Below, one piece after another: positions 4,875 to 20,141 of a stretch of 35,923 nucleotides of DNA. The stretch is from a virus. The DNA lies in the IMG/VR virus record IMGVR_UViG_3300022748_000011, positions 1 to 35,923 of that record; one strand, given 5' to 3'. A model generated the notes under the pieces. That model was not told where the DNA came from, searched no databases, and worked only from the letters and a program-made list of their open reading frames with translations. Made by a program: the position numbers and the translations under genes. Position 1 is the stretch's first letter, and every line of letters begins with the position of its first letter.

Positions 4875-6504
4875 CTTGTTGCTCCCGTTTTGGTAACTTA
4901 ATCGGTTGCGCTCCACCACCCGCTTGAGGTTGATCGCCACCACCCTCTTTCTCTTTACGCTTTAATTTGTCTTTTAACAATTGTTTCATTGGCGGTTCAA
5001 GTAAGTCAAGTAGGGATTCTTTGTCAATGGCTTGTGCCTTAAATAAGTTAAACGCCAATTGCTTGAGATCTTCAGTAAAAATTGGGCTATTGCTGTGGGC
5101 ATCGACCTTAACCACATAATCCTTGGTAAATTGTTCAGCGATAAACTCTTTACCTTCGGTGTCCACAAAATGCGTTGGATCGTAGGCTTGCATGAGCTTG
5201 AGGTACAGAGTAGCCATCTTTTCTAAGCTATCCTCAACGACCAATGCCCGCTTCTTAGCTCTGGAGCTACCTAGTCTAGCAAGCTGGCTAGCGTGTCCTT
5301 GGCTGCGGACACCTGATTCGCCACGACCAGAAAGAACATTGCTTATCCCCGAAACCTCGGAGAACATCGCATCAATCTCACGAATGACCTCAAATAGATC
5401 AGTCGGCATCTGTGGTGCTAGACGATCTACTTTGGCGTTTGGCATATCGGTTGCCAATAAACCACCAGCTCGGTTCAAAGCAAAGTTCTTCTCATCCAAT
5501 ATACCCGTAAATCCAACAAGTGCGGTTGGCGGGCTTACTTGCTTGGACAAAAGATCCAATACTTCATTCATGCGTTGATTACGAAGCTGTTGCAAGAGAA
5601 TAAGTTTTTGACATTCGGATTCTCCCCAATAGTAGTCGTACAAGGGGTTTGGACAAACCTGAATAAACGGACATTCGCCTTTAAGAAAAAGGCTAGCACC
5701 TGGGCGGTCATAAATGATTACCCTAGGGCTAGCAATGGTCACCACTTGATAATCCTCGGTTTCGTCATTCCACACCCATAGCTCGTGCATCTCTACGGTA
5801 TCCTCGGCTACTCGTGGAACATATTTCATTTCGCCATACAAATCCATGTTGACATTACCGTAAATGGTCGGATTGGTTTGGCTTGTAATGATGCGGTTAA
5901 CGGCATCGGGCATCTCCGATTCTTTGGGAGATACCATTGTCGAGAGTTTGCTAACGATTTCTTCTCGTTTTGGATGGGAATACAGACGGGCGTAAAGGTC
6001 GGACTTGGTAATGTAGTAGGTCTGAATTAGCGCTTCTTGCCTGTCTGTATATGGGGTATCCTCACGCAGTACGCCCATTGCAGAGGGTTCGACCATGTAA
6101 GGATGAATGCCGTTTTTCATTACCAGCTTCACAAAGCTGGAGTTGTACACCAACGACCAATTCAAAGCCGAAGAAAAAACTTGGTCAGCATTAGAATTGA
6201 GCCACTCGTCATTCAATGCTTGAGTTAACGCTGGACTTTTGCGGTGTTCAATCGGGTTTACGGATGCGCCTAAACCGATAGAGAATCGTGTGGTTTCGGC
6301 TGAATAAAGGAAAGATGAGAGTTGATCGAGGTGCGGGTTAATCTTATTAAAGTAAGCTGGTGGATCTTCTGGTCCAGAGCCAAATAAGTAATAAGCCCGT
6401 AATGTGTTGTAATCTCCCCGCCTTTCTTCTTTAGACACCATACATTTTTGCATGATGTCTAAATAAAAATCTTCTCTGTCTGCGTTATTTGACGGGATTC
6501 TCAT
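4867..6504 (-). CDS. Portal protein
   Basis: 545 residues, typical for podovirus portals (about 500-700). It starts with a helical clip/stem-type segment (DREDFYLDIMQKCMVSKEERRGDYNTLRAYYLFG) and has PHLDQLSSFLYSAETTRFSIG, LNDEWLNSNADQVFSSALNWSLVYNSSFVKLVM and a long C-terminal helical region with EVSGISNVLSGRGESGVRSQGHASQLARLGSSRAKK, all characteristic of portal subunits. The C-tail is Lys/Gly/Gln-rich. It forms the dodecameric DNA-entry ring on which terminase docks. It overlaps the upstream zinc protein gene by ATGA. Function by pattern and order is secure. Confidence 0.85.
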   Translation of the reverse strand: MRIPSNNADREDFYLDIMQKCMVSKEERRGDYNTLRAYYLFGSGPEDPPAYFNKINPHLDQLSSFLYSAETTRFSIGLGASVNPIEHRKSPALTQALNDEWLNSNADQVFSSALNWSLVYNSSFVKLVMKNGIHPYMVEPSAMGVLREDTPYTDRQEALIQTYYITKSDLYARLYSHPKREEIVSKLSTMVSPKESEMPDAVNRIITSQTNPTIYGNVNMDLYGEMKYVPRVAEDTVEMHELWVWNDETEDYQVVTIASPRVIIYDRPGASLFLKGECPFIQVCPNPLYDYYWGESECQKLILLQQLRNQRMNEVLDLLSKQVSPPTALVGFTGILDEKNFALNRAGGLLATDMPNAKVDRLAPQMPTDLFEVIREIDAMFSEVSGISNVLSGRGESGVRSQGHASQLARLGSSRAKKRALVVEDSLEKMATLYLKLMQAYDPTHFVDTEGKEFIAEQFTKDYVVKVDAHSNSPIFTEDLKQLAFNLFKAQAIDKESLLDLLEPPMKQLLKDKLKRKEKEGGGDQPQAGGGAQPIKLPKREQQVG

Positions 6505-7055
6505 GTCTTGATCTTCAGATTATCAGGATCTCTCAAGGTTGCTTTTGGATCTACTCTAGGTCCTGAGTTTATACCAGCCTGAGATGGTGTCAAGCCCACC
6601 GCTTCACCTTTAACAGACTGAATCGCTCGACCCGTTAACAAGGATTGCATATTTAGTCCTTGGAAGCCGCCACCCCAGATCGCTGCATCACCAGGGCGGG
6701 CTTCTGTTGGCGTTTGCGGGATCGGTTGAGGTTGGATCTTGTCTTTGTTGACCCCTCTTTTACGGGTTGCGTACTTTTCGGCTTGCTCGTATTCTTTTTC
6801 GGTGAACTTGTTTTTGCGGGTGAGGTATCCCGTTTGATGTTCGCCTTCCCTCGTTGTTTTGATGTCCGACATTCCGAACTCGATGGCGAGTTGCTTGGTG
6901 GAGTTGTCGGTGAACTTGGTTTTAGCCGAAATAGTTGCTGGAGCTTGCAAAAAAACGATAAAAACTTCATCTTGGCATCCTTTCATTGGACATTGTGCTT
7001 TGGTACTTTCAAAATACCCATGTGTCGGGCATTTGTAATCGTTCTTAACCGCCAT
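6501..7055 (-). CDS. Zinc-ribbon-like protein between terminase and portal
   Basis: 184 residues. The N-terminus has a probable metal site: C9, H12, C22 and C27 in KCPTHGYF...QCPMKGC. The centre (about 70-110) is charged and helical; the C-terminus is flexible and Pro/Gly-rich. Its gene ends on the portal start (ATGA) and begins within the upstream HTH gene's end. It could bind DNA, terminase or portal during packaging; no function is established by the sequence. Confidence 0.65.
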   Translation of the reverse strand: MAVKNDYKCPTHGYFESTKAQCPMKGCQDEVFIVFLQAPATISAKTKFTDNSTKQLAIEFGMSDIKTTREGEHQTGYLTRKNKFTEKEYEQAEKYATRKRGVNKDKIQPQPIPQTPTEARPGDAAIWGGGFQGLNMQSLLTGRAIQSVKGEAVGLTPSQAGINSGPRVDPKATLRDPDNLKIKT

Positions 7056-7452
7056 ATTGATCCCCTTTTAATTGCTCGTCTAGCGTGTTATAACTATAAT
7101 CAAATCTATTTTTAACCCCTATATCTAGTCGTATTTGACCATTTACTACATTTAATCGTGTCGTCTTTCTTAAAACAGGCTTTGATTCTTTGCGGTATTG
7201 CAAAAATCGGGTGTTATCTTTGTTCTGCATAACGGCTACTTCCCCGTTTTGCCACTCGGTGTAAGCCTTGCTAACCCGTCTTTGCACATATTCAGACAAC
7301 GGTTCGCTCTCGTACAAGAAAACTTCTTTGATTTGCGATACCGATACACCAGCTAATTGGGCAAATAAGTCCACGCTGATCCCTCGATTGCGGTCTTTCA
7401 AAAAGCGTTTCATTACTTTTTTAAGAATTACTTTAGGTAAAGTCGGTTTCAT
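7045..7452 (-). CDS. Helix-turn-helix-like protein downstream of terminase
   Basis: 135 residues. About 25-50 reads RGISVDLFAQLAGVSVSQIKEVFLYE, a likely helix-turn-helix, followed by a basic/aromatic region (YVQRRVSKAYTEWQNGEVAVMQN). Start overlaps the terminase stop (ATGA). Proteins with this pattern recur beside terminase genes of related podoviruses, from my recollection of such genomes. A DNA-binding role in packaging (small-terminase-like) or late control is possible but not shown; small terminase is normally upstream of the large one. Confidence 0.6.
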   Translation of the reverse strand: MKPTLPKVILKKVMKRFLKDRNRGISVDLFAQLAGVSVSQIKEVFLYESEPLSEYVQRRVSKAYTEWQNGEVAVMQNKDNTRFLQYRKESKPVLRKTTRLNVVNGQIRLDIGVKNRFDYSYNTLDEQLKGDQYGG

Positions 7453-9209
7453 TGGCCATAAACCCCAATACGCTTTAAGTAATCGCTAACATTTCTGCCT
7501 ACGGTTAATTGTTCTGGAGTGAAATCATCCTGAACCTTGGATATTTCTCGTGTAATCTTTTGAGCAATGAGCCTAGGTTGGACTTGTTCAGCAAAAGCAG
7601 CGCACGCTAACGCAGCTGCAATGACCCGATCATCCTTGTTTCGACCTGATGCTTCAATTGAACCACCATCTCGAATCATGGTTTTCATTTCCTCAATGGT
7701 ATCCATGTCGTAAATGTCCATCATGCCACGCTCAAAGTAATCCTTCATGTAGGTCAACATCCGTTCTTTGGTAGCCGATGTAGTGAGCCAGCCAATGCTA
7801 TTACTGATACCACCCAAGGTATCGTTTCTGCGCCAGATGTAATTTTGCATATTGGCGTACACATCCATTAAGTCTTTACCTAAAGCTGATCCCATTGCAG
7901 CAGCTTGTCTGCGTAAGTTCTTCAGTTCGTTAATGACGGCTTGACCTGGACCGTTAATCTCTAGGTTTAGCGTAGAGTTTTTGTATGCACCCGCTAAGTG
8001 AGCAATGATCCAAGCAAATTGATAGGTGTTTAGTTCGGAAGTCGCAAACGCAGCCACTTGCTCAAGCCCATCAGCATATACCCTAAAGACTTGAATACAG
8101 AAACGATCAGCCCAATCAGAACTACCGTAAGCGGGATCAGCGCCAATAACATAATAAGCAGTATCAACAGGCTGCTCCCAAACTTTGAGCGTAGCCAATC
8201 TTTCTGTGGATTTAACCACTTCAGTATCTTGGAAGTTAACTCCAAAGCTATAGCGATAGTATTCACAATCCATTCGCTTGATTTTTTTAACAGCATCGGT
8301 ACACCTCGCATTAGAAAAGAAAGAAGTTCCTGTCATCACAAACGCATAGTCCTCAGTAGGCGGGAACTCTTGGTACATGAGCGAATCGTCTTTAATTCCT
8401 TCGTAGAGCTTCCAACGCCACCAGGCAATTTGTCGTGAATTAATTTCGTAGCCGTAGAGTTTCTTAATATCTCTGACCCATTCTTTTTCTTCGCCTGTGA
8501 GCTTGCCATCCCAATACACTTTGTAGGTATTGCTCTCAGGATCGAGCATATAGAGTTCATTGCGCCACCAGCCACAAAAAATTGCTCGTTGGGTTCTAGC
8601 CCGTTTAGCGGTGACATACATATCGTGGAACATATTGAATCCTCGTGCTGTACTCTCAAACATATACAGACGATCAGGATTGGTTTCTGCGAGTGATGCT
8701 AAGAGAGATGCTAGTCCTTCTTCATCTCCCCAAGAGCTTGTTTCTGTACCATGCAAGTATGTAATAGCCTTGCCACGACCCAGACTTCCTTTGGCTCTAA
8801 GTCCAGCGACTTGATAAAAGATACGGCTGCGGTTCTTGAGGGAAAGCTGATTTCGGTTGTGAGCAAGGATCGGGATGCGATACTCCTTGGGCAAACCATC
8901 CATATACATTCCCAAAGTTGATCGGAACATATCCCGGTTTTCTTCCGTATCTGTTGTAAGTGTTCCCTGAAGCCCTGGGTGTGTAAAGTGCCAGTAGAGA
9001 TCGAGTGCGAGTGAAATTGTGGTGATGCCAAGTTGCCTTCCTTTCAAGATCACAAAGAAATGCACATCGTCTTGCAATCCTTTTGTAATCTCATCCATTA
9101 CATAAGTTTGGCTACCCAGTAGGTTGCCCATCTTTTTTAAGCCTTGCTCTTTGGTTTCAATTTGCAGTTGTGAGCAAAACTGATAAAACAGTTGTTTATT
9201 AAAATTCAT
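7449..9209 (-). CDS. terL: Terminase large subunit (packaging ATPase/nuclease)
   Basis: 586 residues from ATG 9209, which overlaps the upstream stop (ATGA); an upstream TTG at 9221 is less likely. ATPase half: a deviant Walker A, KGRQLGITT (56-64), an acidic strand around 149-157 and a coupling motif FESTARG (184-190). Nuclease half (RNase H-like): D358 in IGADPAYG, E418 in LNLEING and DD526-527 in KDDRVIAAA. Together these show the motor that cuts concatemers and pumps DNA into the prohead through the portal encoded two genes on. No frameshift or missing key residue seen. Confidence 0.9.
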   Translation of the reverse strand: MNFNKQLFYQFCSQLQIETKEQGLKKMGNLLGSQTYVMDEITKGLQDDVHFFVILKGRQLGITTISLALDLYWHFTHPGLQGTLTTDTEENRDMFRSTLGMYMDGLPKEYRIPILAHNRNQLSLKNRSRIFYQVAGLRAKGSLGRGKAITYLHGTETSSWGDEEGLASLLASLAETNPDRLYMFESTARGFNMFHDMYVTAKRARTQRAIFCGWWRNELYMLDPESNTYKVYWDGKLTGEEKEWVRDIKKLYGYEINSRQIAWWRWKLYEGIKDDSLMYQEFPPTEDYAFVMTGTSFFSNARCTDAVKKIKRMDCEYYRYSFGVNFQDTEVVKSTERLATLKVWEQPVDTAYYVIGADPAYGSSDWADRFCIQVFRVYADGLEQVAAFATSELNTYQFAWIIAHLAGAYKNSTLNLEINGPGQAVINELKNLRRQAAAMGSALGKDLMDVYANMQNYIWRRNDTLGGISNSIGWLTTSATKERMLTYMKDYFERGMMDIYDMDTIEEMKTMIRDGGSIEASGRNKDDRVIAAALACAAFAEQVQPRLIAQKITREISKVQDDFTPEQLTVGRNVSDYLKRIGVYGQ

Positions 9210-9928
9210 GTGGTAATCCAAGGTAACTTGTTATTAAATTTTTCCATCATCCAACGGTTACCAATTTCAAAGAACTCTTTTTGCACACCGCAGCCACCCC
9301 CTAAACGAAAGTTAAAAGTGTGTTTATTGGTGCAAGCAAAGTTCGGATAAATTTGTTTGGCTGCATTGTAAAAATGACGATCAACGGCCAAATCTTTGTT
9401 ATTTAGCAAAATAGCAATTTGGCGTAGTTTTTCGGTTTTCATACCCCACATACACCAGTCAACAAAATGATGACCTTCAATGTTCCAGGCGTGGTGATTT
9501 TCGCCCAAGGCTTCGCAGTTATCCTCAAACAAAAATTTTCCATCTTGGTCGTACACTTTTCGTAAAGAGTGCGCCCATTCGTATCCTTCATTAATTTTTT
9601 CCATGATGGATTTGACATGATGCTTGTCATACCAATCATCGTCATTGCAAAAGAAAGTCACATCCTCGGTAATGAGTTGTGGCGCAGCAGCTAACCATTT
9701 TTGTCCAAGCCAACCATTGCCACCAATCCGGTTACCCCAATACGACCAACGGGCTTTGTACTGGGAATAATCTTGGGTCATGTCATAAAACTGCGCCAGG
9801 CTACTCTCATCATCGCCATCGCACAAAATGTAATGCGTACATGGATAGGATTGATTGGCAACGCTTTCCAAACATTTTTCTAACTCTTTACGGCCTTTGG
9901 TAACGGTGACTACCGCTGCGCTTTTCAT
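9206..9928 (-). CDS. GT-A fold glycosyltransferase (GT2-like)
   Basis: 240 residues. The N-terminus AAVVTVTKGRKELEKCLESVANQSYP is the standard nucleotide-sugar-binding opening of GT2 enzymes, CDGDDES follows, and the metal-binding DXD-type site is D96-D98 in FFCNDDDWYD. No membrane segment, so it is cytosolic. It lies just upstream of terminase with ATGA overlap, so it is expressed late. Substrate unknown: phage DNA bases, a virion protein or host surface glycan are all possible. Confidence 0.75.
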   Translation of the reverse strand: MKSAAVVTVTKGRKELEKCLESVANQSYPCTHYILCDGDDESSLAQFYDMTQDYSQYKARWSYWGNRIGGNGWLGQKWLAAAPQLITEDVTFFCNDDDWYDKHHVKSIMEKINEGYEWAHSLRKVYDQDGKFLFEDNCEALGENHHAWNIEGHHFVDWCMWGMKTEKLRQIAILLNNKDLAVDRHFYNAAKQIYPNFACTNKHTFNFRLGGGCGVQKEFFEIGNRWMMEKFNNKLPWITT

Positions 9929-10173
9929 GAATGTTTTCCTATGCGTTTTTGTTCAAAATGCGTAATGTCCCAATACGCTACTTTTAGCCTTGCTTCGTGA
10001 TTCCTAGCCAATGCGATTAATGCTCCGTAAGTCATTGCAGAATACTTGCTTTTCCATTCGTTGGCTAATTTGATCTTTTGGCGTTTAGTCCGGCAAGCAA
10101 TGGCTTTGAGCATTTCGTTTTTGTAAATTAAACGCTCTTTGGTCAAGCGTTCAATGTCTTGCATCTCCATCAT
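9925..10173 (-). CDS. Hypothetical small basic helical protein
   Basis: About 82 residues from ATG 10173; ATGs at 10170 and 10164 and a TTG at 10182 are alternatives, none with a clear ribosome site. Lys/Arg-rich, helical (DIERLTKERLIYKNEMLKAIACRTKRQKIKLANEWKSKY). Overlaps the end of the 77-residue gene and the start of the glycosyltransferase gene. No family recognised. Its place near the head of the late transcript allows a regulatory role, which is inference. Confidence 0.5.
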   Translation of the reverse strand: MMEMQDIERLTKERLIYKNEMLKAIACRTKRQKIKLANEWKSKYSAMTYGALIALARNHEARLKVAYWDITHFEQKRIGKHS

Positions 10174-10384
10174 CCGGATCAAGCAAGTTACGCAAATACT
10201 CCACTTCCGCTTGGGCTTTCATCAAAAGCTTCGAGCTTTCCGCATGAACCCGCATGAGTTCGTGAAAAATCTGTTCTTTATTCATTTCCCAGACCCTCTG
10301 CATATACATTTTTTTGGCTTCATCGCCAGCTCGCTCAATGTATTCGGAAACGCTTACTACATTGCCGTTCATTCGATTCTCCAT
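10151..10384 (-). CDS. Hypothetical small helical protein
   Basis: 77 residues, largely helical with a heptad-like C-terminal half (HAESSKLLMKAQAEVEYLRNLLD) and an acidic end. No family recognised. The gene overlaps its upstream neighbour by 16 bases and its downstream neighbour by up to 23, so it belongs to the same translated cluster at the start of the late operon. Confidence 0.55.
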   Translation of the reverse strand: MENRMNGNVVSVSEYIERAGDEAKKMYMQRVWEMNKEQIFHELMRVHAESSKLLMKAQAEVEYLRNLLDPDDGDARH

Positions 10385-10590
10385 ACCCGCACCCCGTTGC
10401 CTTCCCGTCTGGCAATAAACCGCATACCGGTTGCCCGACTAATTCGATAATTGTTGTTGCACATCAAACTAATATTGACATCACCGACAAAAAATGACTC
10501 ACCAACATCCATCTTGCGGTAGGGATATGTGTTGCGTTTTTTGCGCTGCGGTGGTGGAATCTCTTTGTCTATTTTAATCATATCAACCAT
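10369..10590 (-). CDS. DUF7303-like small protein, first late gene
   Basis: 73 residues: PPPQRKKRNTYPYRKMDVGESFFVGD, then MRFIARREGNGVRVWRIE at the C-terminus. This two-block pattern is, from memory, the one annotated as DUF7303 in many tailed phages; function unknown. AAGGAGAT lies six bases before the ATG and a good promoter (10611-10639) lies just upstream, so this is the first cistron of the minus-strand transcript. Confidence 0.65.
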   Translation of the reverse strand: MVDMIKIDKEIPPPQRKKRNTYPYRKMDVGESFFVGDVNISLMCNNNYRISRATGMRFIARREGNGVRVWRIE

Positions 10591-10610
10591 AACCTATCTC
10601 CTTCATTAAT

Positions 10611-10639
10611 CTTATACTATGATACACAACATGATTCAA
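10611..10639 (-). promoter_or_regulatory. Putative late-operon promoter
   Basis: On the minus strand TTGAAT (10639-10634) and TATAAG (10616-10611) are separated by 17 bases, close to the sigma-70 consensus (4/6 and 5/6). It points into the DUF7303-like gene and lies inside the first codons of the opposing plus-strand gene. It is the only strong candidate near the start of the long minus-strand gene block. Confidence 0.55.
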
Positions 10640-11350
10640 ACTTACAACGAATACCATTTAGGCGATCAGCTAATTCACCTTAACTTTTTAAGGCGGGCAG
10701 CCCAGGAAAACCCCGACAAAGAGTTTACGCACTATTGCCACCCCCAGTACCACGAGCAGTTAAAGCCGTTAACTGAAGATTGTCCAATCTACCTCAAGGA
10801 TCTTCATGTTCATCCACAGGCGGTTAATGCCTGGATCGGCTCTAACAACTTCTTTTACGAACACCCGCAATGTCGGCATTGGCTTCATGTTCACCTAGAT
10901 TGGTTTACTTACCTTTCCACCATCCTTGGAATTAATAACCCTATGGCTGGCAAGAAGGAACTACTGTTTGATTACCCCCTCTTAAACGCAGCTGTTTACC
11001 CCGAATTTGACTACCTCATCATTAACGCACCCCCGATGAGCAACCAGCTGCCCGAATTTACCCCCTATTATTTCGATAAAGTGGTGCGAAACCTCTTAAA
11101 TCAAGGGTTAAAAGTAATTACCACCCACCCGACAGGGATGTGCAATAGCACTCTGGAGTGGGGTTTTGATGTGACCCAAATCGGCAACCTATCCATCTAC
11201 GCTAAAAACATCATTGCGGTTGATACCGGACCACTCTGGCCAACCTTCAATGTGCATAACGCTTATACGGTTCTTTCACGAACCGTTATTGGCAGAACCT
11301 TCGATAGTATTGGATTAACGGCCAATACCGTTTGTCAGCAAAAACTGTAA
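10619..11350 (+). CDS. GT-B-like (GT9/heptosyltransferase-type) protein
   Basis: 243 residues. The opening NEYHLGDQLIHLNFLRRAA matches the GD-x-(L/I) helix at the start of GT9-type and related GT-B enzymes, and AVDTGPLWPTFNV near 210-222 resembles their conserved C-terminal DTG-P motif. No membrane segment. There is no Shine-Dalgarno before the ATG at 10619 or the in-frame ATG at 10631; TATACT at 10613-10618 could give a leaderless start at 10631. It is head-to-head with the late operon. The sugar donor and target are unknown, and the enzyme call is moderate. Confidence 0.55.
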   Translation: MIHNMIQTYNEYHLGDQLIHLNFLRRAAQENPDKEFTHYCHPQYHEQLKPLTEDCPIYLKDLHVHPQAVNAWIGSNNFFYEHPQCRHWLHVHLDWFTYLSTILGINNPMAGKKELLFDYPLLNAAVYPEFDYLIINAPPMSNQLPEFTPYYFDKVVRNLLNQGLKVITTHPTGMCNSTLEWGFDVTQIGNLSIYAKNIIAVDTGPLWPTFNVHNAYTVLSRTVIGRTFDSIGLTANTVCQQKL

Positions 11351-11734
11351 TTTTTTTCTGGGGGGATTGAGTTGGGGGTCACGCACACCAACCCCTCAAG
11401 TCCATTCAAAAAACCCTAAAAATAATAAAAATGCGATTATAAAATCCAGATTAAATCCCAATTTACCATTATTAAAAATACATTTATCAGCGAGAACGGC
11501 TTGTGGGTATTTAATATCCCAATAATCTAATTACCCCATATATATATATTTATATTATTTAATTACCCATATATTTATATATTCTAATAATCACTATTAT
11601 CTATATAGAAAATAGTATATTTATATATATATATATATTTACTATGAAAAATCGGCTTGTATGCCTTGATCTACCTATACACTTGTAATCTTATTTGCTT
11701 ATCGTCTATACTCGAACTGGGTAATTTTGCCCAA
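11351..11734. other. AT-rich non-coding region upstream of amidoligase
   Basis: No ORF with a usable start is seen in about 380 bases. The second half is nearly all A/T with TA-dinucleotide runs (about 11540-11640). CGGCTTGT occurs at 11497-11504 and 11653-11660 and again at 14206-14213 beyond the cassette. TAATTACCC followed by an ATATAT run occurs twice. It holds the probable amidoligase promoter at its end. Confidence 0.6.
11683..11712 (+). promoter_or_regulatory. Putative promoter of amidoligase cassette
   Basis: TTGTAA (11683-11688) and TATACT (11707-11712) are 18 bases apart, a moderate sigma-70-type match. The expected transcript begins about 35 bases before the amidoligase ATG, leaving room for the leader repeat and ribosome site. 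Confidence 0.45.
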
Positions 11735-11754
11735 TACCTAACGAAAGGATTTAT
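11735..11754 (+). repeat. Leader/RBS repeat, copy 1
   Basis: A 20-base sequence containing CCTAACGAAAGGATTTAT precedes the amidoligase gene and is repeated exactly at 13024-13043 before the amidotransferase gene. It carries the AAAGGA ribosome site. Identity well beyond the ribosome site suggests duplication or a shared control element. Confidence 0.75.
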
Positions 11755-13014
11755 ATGTATATGAACCTATCTGAACAATTTAAGCGGTTAAGAGATAAAA
11801 ACCATATTGTTCGTATGATGCGAATGAATTACAACGCTTATAACGGTCATTCTCGCTTTGATCACATTCGAGATTTCTCACGATTGCAACATGAAAAGCA
11901 ACGCTATCAAGATTTTGGGATTCTCTTCAATACGGCAATTCAGTCTGGCAGTATTCGAGAAACCTTGCGGTTAATCAATACGAACAGTATTCCGGCTAAT
12001 GGCGGCTGGACTGAAATTCTGGAATATCACTTTAAGAACGAAGAATTTTATTGTTGTGACGATTGCGACAATTATTTCCGGATTGATGACACTACCTATC
12101 TGGACTATGAGGATCGTAGGGTTTGCTTTGATTGTGAATCGAACTATGACGAACCGGAAGAGGATCGTAGCTACGAACACATAGGCGGTAGACATTCCAG
12201 TAAGCGGCAGTTAGGTCATATTCCAAGTGCTTACGATCAGCGAAAACCTAGGGTATTGATGGGTTTAGAACTCGAAATGGAAGTGGAAGAGGATTACGAT
12301 CTCGATAATAAAGCGGCTTACATTCTGGATCACATTGGCAGTTATCGTAGTCCAGATGGTAATAGCTATAAATACGCTTTAATTGAAGAGGATTGTTCGA
12401 TTGATCGTGGTTTTGAGATCGTGACCGGCTATACCGGTCTTGATGTGCATAAAGAACAATTAAAGTTTTTCAAAGGCCGTTTGCATGGTGCATTAAGCCA
12501 TAAAACAGATACTTGCGGTTTGCATATTCACATCTGTAAAAGCGATATGACCATGCTACACGCTAGTAAGCTGATTCTCTTTATGAACGATCCGGCTAAT
12601 GAGGATTTGATTTTTGCTCTAGCCCGTAGGCGAAATAATGGCTATTGCAAACAAAAGGATTTAACGAACAAGGATTATCTCAAGCACTCTCTGGAATATC
12701 GAACCAGATCGGATCAGCTGTGTTCGCTTAATTCGGATCGCTATGAACGGCTTAACTTCCAGAATGATCGAACAATCGAATACCGGTTATTTCGTGGCAC
12801 TCTCAAGTATTCAACGATCATGGCTTGTCTAGAATTTACCTACGCTACATGGTTTTTTGCCAAATCAGCCAGTCCTAGCCAGTTAAATGTAGCGAGATTT
12901 TTGCATTTTATCTGTGAACCTGAAAACCGGCTTGATACTCGATTCTTACGAACCTATTTGAAAACAAAAGGGTTTTTAATGCCGTATGAACCCAATCTCA
13001 AAAAAGCCGCTTAA
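11755..13014 (+). CDS. Amidoligase (Amidoligase_2-type) with N-terminal zinc ribbon
   Basis: 419 residues from ATG 11755 (ATG 11761 also possible; AAAGGA is 5 or 11 bases away). N-terminal helical region (1-95), then a probable zinc ribbon with CxxC pairs C101/C104 and C124/C127. The amidoligase domain, COOH-NH2 ligases distantly related to glutamine synthetase, spans about 165-385: GLELEMEVE (170-178), EEDCSIDRGFEIVTG (211-225), CGLHIHI (254-260), RYERLNFQ (329-336) and TIEYRLFRGTL (340-350). Known logic: ATP-dependent peptide or amide bond formation. The next gene is a class II amidotransferase. Substrate unknown. Flanking AT-rich DNA and an own promoter suggest a cargo cassette. Confidence 0.8.
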   Translation: MYMNLSEQFKRLRDKNHIVRMMRMNYNAYNGHSRFDHIRDFSRLQHEKQRYQDFGILFNTAIQSGSIRETLRLINTNSIPANGGWTEILEYHFKNEEFYCCDDCDNYFRIDDTTYLDYEDRRVCFDCESNYDEPEEDRSYEHIGGRHSSKRQLGHIPSAYDQRKPRVLMGLELEMEVEEDYDLDNKAAYILDHIGSYRSPDGNSYKYALIEEDCSIDRGFEIVTGYTGLDVHKEQLKFFKGRLHGALSHKTDTCGLHIHICKSDMTMLHASKLILFMNDPANEDLIFALARRRNNGYCKQKDLTNKDYLKHSLEYRTRSDQLCSLNSDRYERLNFQNDRTIEYRLFRGTLKYSTIMACLEFTYATWFFAKSASPSQLNVARFLHFICEPENRLDTRFLRTYLKTKGFLMPYEPNLKKAA

Positions 13015-13023
13015 TTTTTTTAC

Positions 13024-13043
13024 TACCTAACGAAAGGATTTAT
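13024..13043 (+). repeat. Leader/RBS repeat, copy 2
   Basis: Exact 20-base copy of the sequence before the amidoligase gene, here with AAAGGA nine bases before the amidotransferase ATG. It lies in the 33-base gap between the two genes. Confidence 0.75.
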
Positions 13044-13047
13044 TTTT

Positions 13048-14052
13048 ATGTGTTTATTAGTCAATCAACAATCCAGTAGCCCTATCCTCTCTGATGAATG
13101 GTTATCGGATTTCTATTCTTACAATTCTGATGGCATAGGGGTTATGTATGCCAATAATGGCGAGTTGATCGTCAAAAAGCTACTACCTCAATCTGCTGAG
13201 GATTTCATTCAGTTTTATCGTGAATACATAGCCGGTAGGGATTGTGCTTTTCATTTACGCATGAGAACGCATGGCGATATTGATCTGGATAATTGTCACC
13301 CATACCAGATATTGAACCGGCTTGAGCATGGGATTGATCTCTGGCTTATGCACAATGGGATTCTGGCTACCGGTAATAAAGCTGATGAAACCAAAAGCGA
13401 TACATGGCATTACATTGAGGATTATCTCAAGCCTATGTTATCGGCTAATCCGGATTTTGCTTTTCACCCCTCTTTCGCTGAGATCGTAGGCGAACACATT
13501 GGCTCAAGTAATAAATTTATTTTGATGGATAACGAAGGTAGGCAAACTGTGATCAATCAAAAATCCGGTGTGTATTGGGCTGGACTCTGGCTCTCGAACA
13601 CTTACGCATGGTCTGCTAGTAGCTCAGCCAGTAAGCATGAGATCAAAGGCTTAAAAAAGCAAAAGAAACAAGCAAAAGAAAAGCCGATCAAGATGGTCTA
13701 TCCGAAATGGTATGGCTACGATTCTGGGATCAGCTACGGCTCTGGATCACAATATGCTTACTATGAAGATGATCCAGAGGGCTACTACGATCAGTTATAT
13801 GAGAATGTAGAAACCTACTTAGATGATCTACGCTATATGGGTTATCCAAAAGCCGGTGATATATCGCTAAATCGTGTATTTGATTTTATTGAGCAGTTTT
13901 CGCTTGAGGATTTTAAGGATCTGGCTGATATGGTGATTGATGGGAATCTTTCTGAGGATTGGTTTATTTTGTGTATGTCTGATCCTAAAAAGGCTACTGA
14001 GTGCTTTCCCTATCTGGCTCGATCCAGAAAGGCGATCCAATATGCCGAATAA
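13048..14052 (+). CDS. Class II glutamine amidotransferase-like Ntn hydrolase
   Basis: 334 residues. MCLLV places Cys2 as the N-terminal nucleophile once Met is removed. GFAT-type glutaminase motifs follow in order: NSDGIGVMY (26-34), HLRMRTHG (69-76, matching HTRWATHG), MHNGIL (101-106) and SDT (117-119). These are the residues that bind glutamine and form the oxyanion hole, so the domain looks active. Residues about 195-215 are Lys-rich and the C-terminal 120 are of unknown fold, Tyr/Asp-rich. It probably supplies ammonia or cleaves a gamma-glutamyl amide for the adjacent amidoligase, or removes what the ligase adds. No synthase domain is fused. Confidence 0.8.
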   Translation: MCLLVNQQSSSPILSDEWLSDFYSYNSDGIGVMYANNGELIVKKLLPQSAEDFIQFYREYIAGRDCAFHLRMRTHGDIDLDNCHPYQILNRLEHGIDLWLMHNGILATGNKADETKSDTWHYIEDYLKPMLSANPDFAFHPSFAEIVGEHIGSSNKFILMDNEGRQTVINQKSGVYWAGLWLSNTYAWSASSSASKHEIKGLKKQKKQAKEKPIKMVYPKWYGYDSGISYGSGSQYAYYEDDPEGYYDQLYENVETYLDDLRYMGYPKAGDISLNRVFDFIEQFSLEDFKDLADMVIDGNLSEDWFILCMSDPKKATECFPYLARSRKAIQYAE

Positions 14053-14128
14053 AGATGATATTCTCTGTGCCGTAGTCCTAATTGTGTTCATACTGCTACT
14101 GCTACACATTCCAGATTGTAAGCCGTAG
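14042..14128 (+). CDS. Single-pass membrane micropeptide, third cistron of amidoligase cassette
   Basis: 28 residues from ATG 14042, overlapping the amidotransferase stop by 11 bases. AGAAAGG (14026-14032) lies nine bases upstream. MPNKDD is followed by a hydrophobic run, ILCAVVLIVFILLLLHI, then PDCKP, a clear single transmembrane helix with a cysteine on each side. The terminator follows 16 bases later, so it shares the transcript. It may anchor the enzymes to the membrane or be their substrate; both ideas are speculative. Confidence 0.5.
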   Translation: MPNKDDILCAVVLIVFILLLLHIPDCKP

Positions 14129-14144
14129 CCGTTAAAACCCTCTT

Positions 14145-14168
14145 AAACCCGCTTAGGCGGGTTTTTTT
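14145..14168 (+). terminator. Intrinsic terminator of amidoligase cassette
   Basis: A perfect eight-base stem AAACCCGC/GCGGGTTT with a four-base loop (14145-14164), continuing into seven T residues (14162-14168). Canonical rho-independent terminator ending the amidoligase, amidotransferase and micropeptide transcript. Confidence 0.9.
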
Positions 14169-14313
14169 ATGCCTAGTAATACCTAAGCACCAAATTGAAC
14201 GAAAACGGCTTGTATAGGGGTTTTAAGCGGTTTAATGGCTTTTCTTAGGTTTTACAAGGCTTAGAAGCCTAAAAAAGCAGCTGAAACTATCTATAAGTAT
14301 ATGATTTATATGG

Positions 14314-14414
14314 ATAATTTAATACCTATAATTTAATAACTATCTACTATCAATAAAAAAGTATAGTAATTTTGATAATTTAATTATCAGATAATTTAAT
14401 AATAATAATTTAAT
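14314..14414 (+). repeat. Five copies of ATAATTTAAT
   Basis: Exact decamers start at 14314, 14328, 14375, 14391 and 14405. Spacings of 14, 47, 16 and 14 bases are not strictly regular, and low complexity inflates such matches, but flanking bases (GATAATTTAAT) are also partly kept. Confidence 0.5.
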
Positions 14415-14568
14415 TACTATTATTTAATTAAAATAATTATTATTTATTTAATATTATATTTATTAAATATTATTTTAATTAAATTATTATAATATTTATA
14501 TATTATAATGCAGCTGCGAAAATTTTGCAAAAATTTTTTTCAGGCCCTAAATTATTTTGAACTTGCCT

Positions 14569-14739
14569 GTAGATCGTCAAAATAAAAAACTAGGGTTTTC
14601 CCGTAGATCATCTAAATAAAAAATCAGAGGTATGAATTATTTCGTACCTTGTCAAGTTATTACTTAAGCAATAACAAGAATACCCGATTGTCCCAGGAAG
14701 AACCCCAAAACCCCATTGCCCGTAGATAGCCCAAATAAA
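14569..14739 (+). repeat. Three GTAGAT...AAATAAA repeats
   Basis: GTAGATCGTCAAAATAAAAA (14569-14588) and GTAGATCATCTAAATAAAAA (14603-14622) differ at two positions; a third, shorter copy GTAGATAGCCCAAATAAA lies at 14722-14739. The first two are 34 bases apart and the third is 119 bases further. These could be iterons or binding sites controlling the downstream operon. Confidence 0.6.
14629..14675 (+). other. Tandem hairpins in non-coding region
   Basis: First hairpin: GGTATGAA/TTCGTACC (14629-14636 and 14641-14648) with a TTAT loop and one G-T pair. Second: GTTATT/AATAAC (14656-14661 and 14670-14675) around ACTTAAGC. No T-run follows either one, so they are not terminators. They lie between the second and third GTAGAT repeats, and could belong to an origin or a small RNA. 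Confidence 0.45.
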
Positions 14740-14764
14740 GTTGCCCATACCTAGAAAAGATTAG

Positions 14765-14793
14765 TTGCATATCTTTTTTACATGATGTATAGT
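14765..14793 (+). promoter_or_regulatory. Putative promoter of recombination operon
   Basis: TTGCAT (14765-14770) and TATAGT (14788-14793) with a 17-base spacer. The -10 is good (5/6), the -35 weak (3/6). It is placed 40 bases before the first gene of the plus-strand operon, directly after the repeat region. Confidence 0.5.
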
Positions 14794-14833
14794 TTTAATC
14801 GTAGTATCCTATTAACCTAACTTGGAGAACCCT

Positions 14834-15048: not shown

Positions 15049-15285
15049 ATGGCAAGAACACCAGGCAGTAAGAACAAACCAAAGACTGTAGCAATCTATT
15101 CTGAACAAGATGTGCGGGATCTCAATGCTCGGATTACCAAGCTTGAGGGACTTACTGAACGCCAAGATGAAGCAGTCCAACAAGGGCTAGATGAGATCAG
15201 CGAGTTGCGGGATAAGGTGGAGTTTTATCGCAAACAAACCAACCACTATCTTGCGTTGATTAACATTCTCGCCAAGGGGGTGTGA
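15049..15285 (+). CDS. Hypothetical coiled-coil protein
   Basis: 78 residues. A basic start (ARTPGSKNKPK) resembling DNA-contacting tails is followed by a long helix with heptads (DLNARITKLEGLTERQDEAVQQGLDEISELRDKVEFYRKQTNHY). The stop overlaps the exonuclease ATG (TGATG), so the two are coupled. An oligomeric DNA-associated accessory factor is plausible; not proven. Confidence 0.6.
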   Translation: MARTPGSKNKPKTVAIYSEQDVRDLNARITKLEGLTERQDEAVQQGLDEISELRDKVEFYRKQTNHYLALINILAKGV

Positions 15286-16187
15286 TGGCTAATGATCGCA
15301 ACGACTTCGAACCCGAAGTGCGTAACTCCGCTTGGTGGAGCGGTGACTCTCGCATGGCCGCTAATGGTCGTGCTGTCGATGCCATCCTCACTAAGCAAGG
15401 TAAACGCCAAGCACCTGATCTATCCGACAATGAAGCGGTGCAGATGGGTCATGTCATGCAACCGATCATTGGGCGCTTATTCCAAGACAAGCATAAGATG
15501 GAGTTAAAGGATGCCGATTATGCCCTTACCCACTCCAGCGAGTCTTGGTTTCGCTCTCATTTTGATTTCATTAGCGCAGATGGTCGTGTGCTTGTTGAAG
15601 CTAAAAACTACAATGCGGGAGTTCGCAATAAGTTTGATGCCGACACCAATCGGATTCCTGATGCTGACTACGCCCAATTGGTACATGAGTGCGCTTGTCA
15701 TGGCATTGATCGTATATTTTTGGCTGTGCTTTTTGGAGGTCAGGAGTTCGTTACTTTTGAGTTCAATATCAGCCAAGCTGAGAAAGACGAGTTGGTTCAA
15801 AAGATGGCGAAGTTGTGGGCGTTCTGTAAGACCGACACATTACCTCCAGCCGAGAGCATCGAGCAAACGAAGATCATCTACCCGCAAAGTGCGCCTGGTC
15901 AAATTGTGGCAACACAAAACATCGAGCAAGCCGTAGCGCAACTCAAGGCGGTCAAGCAAGGCATTAAACAGCTTGAGGAACAGGAAGAGCAGATCGAGGT
16001 AGCACTTCGTAATCTGATGCAAGACAAGGATGAGATCGTGTCTTTTTCAGGTGAAACTCTGGTGACTTGGAGATCGTCTAAGGTTTCAAAACGGTTTTCA
16101 GCTACCTTATTTCAACAAGCAATGCCCGACATTTATGAGAAGTTTGTAGTCGAGCAACCAGGATCAAGGAGGTTCTTAGTCAAATGA
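15285..16187 (+). CDS. YqaJ/lambda-exonuclease-type recombination nuclease
   Basis: 300 residues from ATG 15285; the GTG one codon earlier is crowded by AAGGGGG and less likely. PD-(D/E)xK core: SHFDFIS with D94, then RVLVEAKNY with E105 and K107; Q and helix residues follow in DYAQLVHECACHG. The early helix RNSAWWSGDSRMAANGRAVDAI resembles the SRAxxA-type opening of YqaJ nucleases. The C-terminal 110 residues include a coiled coil. It resects double-strand ends for the annealing protein encoded two genes on. The 3' end carries the ribosome site of an overlapping micropeptide gene. Confidence 0.85.
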   Translation: MANDRNDFEPEVRNSAWWSGDSRMAANGRAVDAILTKQGKRQAPDLSDNEAVQMGHVMQPIIGRLFQDKHKMELKDADYALTHSSESWFRSHFDFISADGRVLVEAKNYNAGVRNKFDADTNRIPDADYAQLVHECACHGIDRIFLAVLFGGQEFVTFEFNISQAEKDELVQKMAKLWAFCKTDTLPPAESIEQTKIIYPQSAPGQIVATQNIEQAVAQLKAVKQGIKQLEEQEEQIEVALRNLMQDKDEIVSFSGETLVTWRSSKVSKRFSATLFQQAMPDIYEKFVVEQPGSRRFLVK

Positions 16188-18218: not shown

Positions 18219-18661
18219 AAACTAAGCCGTTTAATCAAACGCTACACGATCAATGCGATCCGCATACTCGTAATGCGGTGATTCGGTATTTGAAAAATGT
18301 TTGGTGTGTGGATGCCATACCCAATCCAGATCGCTATGCCGTTGATTTAATTGGCTTTAAGGATTTGATACCGCATTGTTATGTAGAAGTAGAAAACCGG
18401 TATTGGGGTCGTGGGATGCATTATTGTCCGTATCAAACAATCCATGTGCCATATCGCAAGGCCAAACTTTTCAATAATGATTTGCAAACCTTTATGTTTG
18501 TCGTAAATCATTACATGGAAAATGCATACTGGATTGATGCGATCAAGATTAAAGATTCACCAGTAATTGAAGTAAAGAATACGGCAGTAGCGAGCGATGA
18601 GTATTTTTATGATGTACCAATTAAAGAATGGAAGTTAATTAACCTTGAGGATGTTTTCTAA
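18215..18661 (+). CDS. Possible PD-(D/E)xK-like nuclease
   Basis: 148 residues. RYAVDLIGFKDLIPHCYVEVENRYW (about 40-64) has the spacing of a restriction-nuclease core: an Asp, a beta strand, then E-x-E in place of E-x-K. The rest is alpha/beta with many aromatic residues. I cannot confirm catalytic completeness because the usual Lys is replaced. Located between small hypothetical genes and a glycosyltransferase whose ATG overlaps its stop. Confidence 0.4.
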   Translation: MKTKPFNQTLHDQCDPHTRNAVIRYLKNVWCVDAIPNPDRYAVDLIGFKDLIPHCYVEVENRYWGRGMHYCPYQTIHVPYRKAKLFNNDLQTFMFVVNHYMENAYWIDAIKIKDSPVIEVKNTAVASDEYFYDVPIKEWKLINLEDVF

Positions 18662-19401
18662 TGACTAAATTATTTGTAGCAACACCGATGTATGGTGGAA
18701 TGTGCGCTGGTTACTATATGCAATCCGTTATCCAGCTAATGACTACTTGCCAGGGTAATGGCGTGGATGTTCACTTTAGCTTTATGTTTAACGAAAGCTT
18801 GATTACCAGAGCCAGAAACTCATTGGCAGCGACCTTTTTGAAAACAGAATGTACTCATTTGATGTTTATTGACTCTGACATTCGTTTTCGTGCCGATGAT
18901 GTGATCCACATGATTCGTGCTGAAAAAGATATTCTCTGCGGAATCTATCCTAAGAAAGAGATTAACTGGTATCAGGTTAAGGCAGCAATGGATCGGGGTG
19001 TGCCATTCGATCAGCTCAAAAACCATACAGGTAGCTTCGTGGTGAACCTAGTGAATTATGTGGGCGAGGTCACCGTTCCAATCAATATGCCTGTCGAGAT
19101 TTTTAATGGTGGTACTGGCTTCATGCTGATTAAGCGAGAGGTCTTTGAAAAGATGGCTGATGTCGTACCTGAGTACGCTAATGATGTGATTGATCTATCA
19201 GGTCAAATGAAGCAGCTAGAGCCAATCAAAGAATACTTTACGACCTCGATTGAGCCTGGCACAAACCGTTTGCTCTCAGAGGACTACCACTTTTGTCGTA
19301 CTTGGCGAGAAATGGGTGGCAAGGTGTACGCAGCGCCCTGGTGTCAATTAGCCCACATCGGCACTTATGCGTTTGAAGGTCAACTAACCCCATCGGAGTA
19401 A
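18661..19401 (+). CDS. GT-A fold glycosyltransferase
   Basis: 246 residues. Begins LFVATPMYGG, then FNESLITRARNSLAATFLKTECTHLMFIDSDIRF, with DSD (71-73) as the metal/sugar-nucleotide DXD site, and later NGGTGFMLIKREVF and LLSEDYHFCRTWREMGGKVY, the acceptor-side segments of such enzymes in phages. Cytosolic. It is followed two bases later by an FkbM-type methyltransferase, so the two may act on one substrate. Target unknown. Confidence 0.75.
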   Translation: MTKLFVATPMYGGMCAGYYMQSVIQLMTTCQGNGVDVHFSFMFNESLITRARNSLAATFLKTECTHLMFIDSDIRFRADDVIHMIRAEKDILCGIYPKKEINWYQVKAAMDRGVPFDQLKNHTGSFVVNLVNYVGEVTVPINMPVEIFNGGTGFMLIKREVFEKMADVVPEYANDVIDLSGQMKQLEPIKEYFTTSIEPGTNRLLSEDYHFCRTWREMGGKVYAAPWCQLAHIGTYAFEGQLTPSE

Positions 19402-19403
19402 TC

Positions 19404-20141
19404 ATGGAAATTCACGATATTCGTTTAGAAGTAAACCCTGGCAATCCTATTCCACAGTACCAACACAAGCATAAGCTCTATGACCGCTTTTTGCCGTTCT
19501 TAGGAAAATACATTGATGGCACAGTCATTGATGTCGGTGCGAACTGCGGATTACTCATGGCATCCATGATGGCAAACAATCCAGCACTATCCTTTGTGTG
19601 CGTAGAAGCCGAGGAAAACATCTTTAAATATCTTGCCCGTAATTACGATAATGTTAAACAAGTGTTTCCAGACAACAGGGTGCAGCTTGTAAAAGGTAAG
19701 GTAGGTACAATTGGTATTCCACTTGATACGGTCATTCGAGAATATGAGGTTGACGATCTGTCGCTTATTAAGATTGATACCGATGGCTACGACTGGGATG
19801 TGATTCAAAGTTGCTCGTTTGAAAAAAAGCCATTGATCTACTATGAAGCAGACTTTAGGACACCAGAGCAGTATTACAAGTTCTCAAAAGTACCCATCCA
19901 GCTATTAGCCAAAGGGTACAGTCAATTCTATCTATTTGATAATTTTGGGGAATTTGTAACGCAGACCAACGACCCTGAACAGATGTTGCATTTAATGAAC
20001 TATATCTGGCGTATGAAGCAAGGTCATAGCGATACAACAATTTGGTACTTTGACATTCTGGTAACAACACCAGAGCAAGAGGAGTTGTGTAATCAGATCG
20101 TTACCGACTACTGCGCTTCTTCCTTCGCTTTGCCGTCTTAG
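19404..20141 (+). CDS. FkbM-type SAM-dependent methyltransferase
   Basis: 245 residues. SAM-binding motif I VIDVGANCG (41-49), acidic motif II CVEAEENIF (66-74), and LIKIDTDGYDWDVI (about 120-133), the conserved FkbM post-motif strand. FkbM enzymes usually O-methylate sugars, which suits the upstream glycosyltransferase. GGAG lies five bases before the ATG. Its last 41 bases overlap, on the opposite strand, the end of the last late gene. Confidence 0.8.
   Translation: MEIHDIRLEVNPGNPIPQYQHKHKLYDRFLPFLGKYIDGTVIDVGANCGLLMASMMANNPALSFVCVEAEENIFKYLARNYDNVKQVFPDNRVQLVKGKVGTIGIPLDTVIREYEVDDLSLIKIDTDGYDWDVIQSCSFEKKPLIYYEADFRTPEQYYKFSKVPIQLLAKGYSQFYLFDNFGEFVTQTNDPEQMLHLMNYIWRMKQGHSDTTIWYFDILVTTPEQEELCNQIVTDYCASSFALPS

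Follow-up and report, generated by a model that had tools for sequence, protein, structure and literature searches.

Why would a small phage carry an amidoligase, a glutamine amidotransferase and a membrane micropeptide together? We addressed this question in the window, by which we mean the whole stretch of DNA analysed: 35,923 bases of a single, possibly incomplete IMG/VR virus record (IMGVR_UViG_3300022748_000011). The three genes form a + strand unit at the left edge of the early region (Table 1). We read the first two as a two-protein, glutamine-dependent and ATP-driven enzyme that forms amide bonds, carried as swappable early-region cargo and directed most likely against host defence early in infection (probability roughly 0.45). 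The enzymology itself, glutamine hydrolysis followed by ATP-driven amidation, is probable. The counter-defence role is placed first only tentatively, because the sharing of a genomic slot with antirestriction genes, on which it leans, is indirect.

Family assignment of the two enzymes

The first gene product scored 35.8 bits against PF12224 in Pfam (gathering cut-off 22) over residues 209-364, and in PHROGs it matched phrog_16683 (1.3e-25) and phrog_2443, annotated as amidoligase enzyme (9e-14). Its true start is probably the second ATG, at 11761, since the starts of relatives align there. A sequence search for a solved close homologue returned just weak zinc-finger matches to a cysteine ribbon, and a fold search was needed. 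In the AF2 model (predicted local distance difference test score, pLDDT, 88.7) an N-terminal helical region is followed by a four-Cys ribbon (C101/C104/C124/C127) and by a core of the glutamine synthetase (GS)/GCS fold (about residues 159-408). The core matched 1tt4 (YbdK type, Z 10.5) and plant glutamate-cysteine ligase (GCL, Z 10.1); glutamine synthetases and Dop also matched, and Foldseek additionally listed PafA. Compared with the ligases of the GS, GCS, YbdK and PafA-Dop fold, the protein has the same fold and the same acidic/His/Arg pattern, but identity is at most 17% and the ribbon is extra. The predicted structure is thus a ligase fold of the GS/GCS type in which the ExE, D, HxH and ExR motifs are conserved, confirming the Amidoligase_2 assignment that an earlier note on this DNA had made.

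The second gene product was below the Pfam cut-off when searched alone (PF13230, E 0.0033, 16.8 vs 23 bits), a cut-off for the lone protein that is not a defining feature of the class II amidotransferase superfamily. When the family profile was searched against PDB, it matched PurF (1ao0, E 1.6e-8) and also GlmS, and 49 of 63 relatives matched GATase_4. The AF2 model (pLDDT 89.2) comprises an Ntn domain (about residues 1-200), a low-confidence linker (221-239) and a C-terminal helical domain (about 243-331). The best fold matches were GlmS (2j6h, Z 11.4, 187 residues, 4.2 Å) and EgtC (4zfj, Z 11.4, 172 residues, 3.9 Å); PurF followed at Z about 9-10, and proteasome-type Ntn folds were clearly lower (Z about 5). 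The protein has a Cys directly after Met1, the RxxTHG and HNG motifs of class II enzymes, and a predicted Ntn glutaminase fold. The class II assignment of the earlier note thus also holds, despite the score of the single sequence.

We then compared 98 distinct pairs of the two proteins; the relatives used here and below are mostly metagenomic. In the amidoligase, G170, E172, E174, D213, S215, E221, H257, H259, R329, E342 and R344 were invariant (98/98), and all four ribbon cysteines were 99% conserved; this conserved ribbon is new as far as we checked. In the amidotransferase, C2, R71, T74, G76, N82, H84 and P85 were invariant (98/98), N103 and G104 were kept in all rows with letters, and H75 and D118 were each present in 91% of rows. 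Loci had been fetched partly by patterns (HxRxxTHG or DNCH for the amidotransferase, CGxHxH or RYxxxN for the amidoligase), so conservation inside these motifs is partly a result of selection, because the patterns demanded them; the other residues are unbiased. The motifs that the earlier note had quoted are present, and the columns with the highest conservation lie in them.

The two genes form one unit

Each of the 152 viral loci that contain both genes, many of them overlapping copies of one contig, has the two adjacent and on the same strand. Lone genes were seen in seven viral loci (six amidoligase-only, one amidotransferase-only), every one cut at an edge with no room for the partner. In bacteria, mostly Clostridia, 74 loci had room for a second gene, and in 65 of them the amidoligase was followed directly, at its stop or very close to it, by an amidotransferase-like open reading frame (ORF) with Cys2; most of these ORFs were too diverged for the phage profile. 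Within the main phage clade, distances among the amidoligases correlated with those among the amidotransferases (r 0.79, Mantel p 0.001). No fusion of amidoligase and amidotransferase was found among the loci compared. Because of the adjacency, the bacterial pairing and the distance correlation, we conclude that the two-protein unit is real, old and coupled.

The pairing in phages has been published (PMC10580990, PMC5498523), and the earlier note was correct in citing such a link; the near-obligate character of the pairing, measured here across phages and bacterial loci, is new as far as we checked. Named phages carrying the pair include MW202733 and the Methylophilales phages MEP401 and MEP402. 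The latter two encode an amidoligase (PF12224) and a GATase (PF13522) of the same families, in the same order and adjacency, just upstream of early replication genes (PMC10580990). Their catalytic residues align with those of the window proteins, but overall identity is 21-22% and 27-29%, the ribbon cysteines are partly shared, and a homologous micropeptide was not found. In the Clostridia and Ruminococcus pairs, the amidoligase has N-terminal Cys pairs and the Cys2 GATase starts within a few bases of it; in the case examined, that GATase matches GATase_6 and not GATase_4, and a DUF960 gene stands in place of the micropeptide. The Ruminococcus loci (L236 at 5797-8181, L209 and L215) add a third gene to the amidoligase and the class II amidotransferase, in L236 the DUF960 gene (2.5e-25); L215 also has, at 9178-12642, an ORF that looks Cas9-like by eye. 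None of the three outcomes that the earlier note had named as fatal to its proposal (no family match, catalytic residues that do not converge, no other phage with both genes) occurred.

The pair is exchanged with antirestriction genes

The unit lies in a slot between two conserved genes, the right one RecE-like. We surveyed this slot by scanning for relatives of the window RecE (15282-16187), which gave 77 new loci; cassette-bearing relatives collected previously were not recounted. Among the survey loci with at least 3.5 kb upstream, the pair was present in 1 and absent from 32. In loci lacking the pair, a homologue of the left flanking gene (10619-11350) was often present, and in relatives the slot held 2.7-3.9 kb of other cargo. 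This cargo included the antirestriction protein ArdC (PF08401, 1.7e-34; PHROG anti-restriction, 1.3e-89), a C5 DNA methyltransferase (8.7e-55), Mom (1.8e-40; PHROG Mom-like, 2e-58) and a PAPS-reductase-like protein (PAPS_reduct, 5.5e-7; PHROG, 7e-53). An antirestriction role of ArdC has experimental support for plasmid R388 (PMC7213743).

Among the 22 distinct slots of the survey, ArdC was found in 15 (one together with Mom), a PAPS-type gene in 3, a C5 methyltransferase in 1, the pair in 1 and none of these in 2. When cassette-bearing relatives with the same flanks were added, giving 12 pair-bearing slots, ArdC was present in 0 of these 12 and in 15 of the remaining 21 (Fisher p 5e-5, uncorrected for relatedness). 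The RecE tree needed 10 cargo changes. Within the window's own RecE clade of seven rows (98/95 support), three carry the pair, two ArdC, one a C5 methyltransferase and one a PAPS-type gene, and the nearest relative of the window RecE by identity (84%) carries a PAPS-type gene. The slot counts and the changes on the RecE tree indicate that the module is one of several interchangeable cargoes of a slot in which counter-restriction genes predominate. Among the papers listed in a literature search on amidoligases together with ArdC or antirestriction, none contained both terms, and the exchange is new as far as we checked. Neither enzyme showed sequence homology to ArdC, Mom or a DNA methyltransferase in Pfam or PHROGs; the chemistry of those proteins differs, the slot alone is shared, and a common role would be an extrapolation from it.

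The earlier note had argued that spending 2.4 kb on the unit in a genome without its own polymerase implied a strong benefit. The lack of a polymerase is consistent with the PHROG and Pfam scans, in which the ORFs of the window were divided between the two databases and not every ORF was screened with both. The length of the unit is better explained by interchangeable accessory cargo, as relatives fill the same slot with ArdC, DNA methyltransferase or PAPS-reductase-like genes. Among the roles that note had listed, the exchange fits anti-defence better than modification of a virion protein, and peptide tagging as the specific function was not supported.

Several points weigh against a counter-defence role. 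A shared slot need not mean a shared purpose, as slots may also carry unrelated accessory genes. Counter-defence is not an established function of the PAPS-reductase-like cargo. A second slot test, at the primase-helicase flank of locus L089 in a different phage family, found the pair as a minority occupant (3 of 32) of a variable region whose other occupants were mostly unannotated small genes, which replicates accessory cargo and not the antirestriction link. The EgtC-like fold match of the predicted structure would also fit a gamma-glutamyl hydrolase. Finally, the literature, citing Iyer 2009, favours cell-wall modification against superinfection (PMC10580990, PMC5498523, PMC11318856).

Micropeptide and expression signals

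The micropeptide begins inside the amidotransferase ORF, which it overlaps by 11 nt. Counting the window, 14 loci with the pair encode such a peptide, with P[NT]xxD before the membrane span and a stop-start overlap of 4-11 nt. Its pN/pS was 0.35, indicating purifying selection, with synonymous sites near saturation. The 28-residue membrane peptide of the earlier note is therefore a real gene, and its coupling to the pair is new as far as we checked. Other lineages have unrelated hydrophobic peptides or none at this position. The micropeptide is thus a frequent companion and a non-defining part of the unit. The suggestion that the system is membrane-bound was not supported, as its sole membrane span is that of the micropeptide, whose family is missing in most relatives. 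In contig L008, a small protein (8193-8315, 40 aa) bearing two CxxC motifs stands right after the pair and replaces the micropeptide.

The leader CTAACGAAAGGATTTAT had exactly two exact copies, one before each enzyme gene, a duplication that may keep translation of both subunits at an equal level. After the unit, a terminator hairpin (14145-14164) with an 8-bp stem and following Ts is present as the earlier note had described; the stability of its fold is only modestly above that of shuffled sequences (z -1.5). The shared promoter proposed at 11683 matched at 9 of 12 positions, which is not above chance; the region had 10 such promoter-like sites where 15.1 were expected from shuffles, and because it has fewer than shuffled sequence, we dropped this promoter as evidence. 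The AT-rich blocks described on both sides of the unit were found at about 11520-11660 and 14290-14520 (GC 0.16 and 0.10). The GC of the unit, 0.40-0.41, is lower than that of the slot-flanking genes (0.45-0.48).

Proposed mechanism

From the fold and the conserved residues, we infer that the amidotransferase would hydrolyse glutamine at Cys2. At its ExE/D/E/HxH site, the amidoligase would then use ATP to activate a carboxylate, which it would amidate with the ammonia released, as the chemistry of its family and the near-obligate pairing suggest. We regard this as the most economical scheme for the pair. The four-Cys ribbon and the N-terminal helices may select a macromolecular or peptide substrate. 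Where present, the translationally coupled micropeptide might conceivably tether the complex to the membrane or regulate it there. The modification would shield the phage or disarm a host defence; here the exchange with ArdC, DNA methyltransferase and Mom genes is observed, and a purpose shared with them is presumed. In a more specific form, which we consider doubtful, the pair would be a new class of counter-defence enzyme that overcomes host restriction by amidating carboxylates of a defence protein (for example masking acidic active-site residues) or modified bases of phage DNA, interchangeable with ArdC, Mom and DNA methyltransferases.

No experiment on what phage amidoligase-amidotransferase pairs act on was found in the searchable papers. 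Clustering of the neighbours around 61 distinct viral loci, in which a substrate gene was looked for, returned only terminase, primase-helicase, RecE-region, structural and unannotated small genes.

Alternative functions

Modification of the cell envelope is the alternative that survives best, though we consider it somewhat unlikely. The pair would amidate, or add an amide-linked residue to, the peptidoglycan stem or another surface peptide and so exclude superinfecting phages. Glutamine-dependent amidation of wall peptides has precedents in MurT/GatD and AsnB/LtsA. The membrane micropeptide of some lineages would suit such a role, and surface chemistry is hinted at by glycosyltransferase and FkbM genes predicted in other parts of the window. 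The same hypothesis has been proposed for phages of the phiEco32 type with the same two families. In the peptidoglycan modification cassette of phiEco32, LUZ24, RIO-1 and PSA-HP1 (PMC5498523, PMC3890496), early genes likewise encode an Amidoligase_2 protein together with a class II amidotransferase; these cassettes further encode a gamma-glutamyl cyclotransferase, an ATP-grasp ligase and a second COOH-NH2 ligase. None of these three was found in the PHROG and Pfam scans of the main ORFs of the window, a record that may be incomplete, and LUZ24- or phiEco32-type phages were absent from the tblastn matches of the window amidoligase. Because the companion genes were not found in these scans, we did not file the unit as such a cassette; the earlier note had called the system self-contained, and this is supported. 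Stenotrophomonas phage StenR_269 has a fuller version, in which a cyclotransferase, an amidotransferase, a GS-like protein, a D-Ala-D-Ala ligase-like protein, an amidoligase and a second amidotransferase are annotated together. The window slot exchanges with antirestriction genes and not with known envelope genes, and because of this slot evidence we favour early counter-defence over modification of peptidoglycan against superinfection.

A ligase/hydrolase cycle is unlikely. Here the amidoligase would make a gamma-glutamyl or amino-acyl amide that the Ntn protein removes, as EgtA and EgtC do in ergothioneine synthesis, or the Ntn protein would act as a tag peptidase. EgtC is a top structural match of the Ntn protein, tied with GlmS, and YbdK and plant GCL are top matches of the amidoligase. 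However, the sequence profile prefers PurF and GlmS, and glutamine-binding residues of the GlmS/PurF type (RxxTHG, HNG and Asp118) are kept. These residues do not discriminate, because EgtC binds a related gamma-glutamyl group.

DNA modification, a special case of the counter-defence reading, is very unlikely. The pair would amidate or conjugate a carboxyl-bearing modified base in phage DNA and thereby block restriction as Mom and C5 methyltransferases do. In relatives the slot carries one or the other of those two proteins, and one pair-bearing contig (L008/L054) has a C5 methyltransferase (L008, 9187-9936) about 1 kb downstream of the pair. This contig was the only one among 160 loci with such a gene near the pair, and in the window we recognised no gene that would make a carboxylated base.

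Auxiliary metabolism, in which the pair would supply phage building blocks by recycling nitrogen or glutamine of the host, as read for phage-ZRK32, is highly improbable, since the recurrent neighbours included no recognised gene of an amino-acid or nucleotide pathway, the module is exchanged with antirestriction genes and the ribbon suggests a macromolecular partner. The phage-ZRK32 nitrogen reading and the Giles interaction paper were considered and have no bearing on the substrate of the window pair.

Features and neighbouring genes

Table 1. Features of the amidoligase-amidotransferase unit, its slot and related cargo (window coordinates unless a locus is named)
Feature	Position	Strand	Basis or remark
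Amidoligase_2-family enzyme	11755..13014	+	419 aa; ORF list, PF12224, PHROG, AF2 fold
Class II (Cys-Ntn) glutamine amidotransferase-like protein	13048..14052	+	334 aa; family profile, AF2 fold
Single-span membrane micropeptide	14042..14128	+	28 aa; kept at the same overlap in relatives
Intrinsic terminator	14145..14171	+	8-bp stem, 4-nt loop, T tract
17-bp leader CTAACGAAAGGATTTAT, likely ribosome-binding site, ahead of amidoligase	11738..11754	+	exact duplicate
Identical 17-bp leader CTAACGAAAGGATTTAT ahead of amidotransferase	13027..13043	+	exact duplicate
Variable cargo slot	11351..14821	.	between gene 10619-11350 and ORF 14822/RecE; cargo differs in relatives
Left slot flank, conserved 243-aa protein	10619..11350	+	without Pfam/PHROG match
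Right slot flank, conserved RecE-like exonuclease	15282..16187	+	phrog_434 5.4e-44, PF09588
Recurrent cargo protein, about 214 aa	L329 3507-4151; L330 2502-3146; L334 2595-3239; others		early region

The left flanking gene adjoins the slot in most relatives, and its product looks glycosyltransferase-like by eye only. Elsewhere the window encodes a family 2 glycosyltransferase (9206-9928, - strand; PF00535, 2.6e-7), a protein with a weak Anp1-type match under the cut-off (18661-19401, + strand; 2.2e-5) and an FkbM methyltransferase (19404-20141, + strand; PF05050, 2.6e-5). These three predicted genes suggest sugar chemistry in a small phage.

The slot (11351-14821) and loci L248-L319 form a cargo hot spot, whose unannotated small ORFs are candidates for new counter-defence genes. 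In the early region of primase-helicase phages without the pair, a cargo protein of about 214 aa (LSKTSKL..SWSLQALDTCPG...C..CYA) recurs.

Significance

With the near-obligate pairing, the kept active sites and the exchange with antirestriction genes, an annotation that has been noted for years with a superinfection hypothesis becomes a small set of questions that experiments can address directly. Should the counter-defence role hold, amidation would be, to our knowledge, a chemistry not yet described for the evasion of bacterial restriction.

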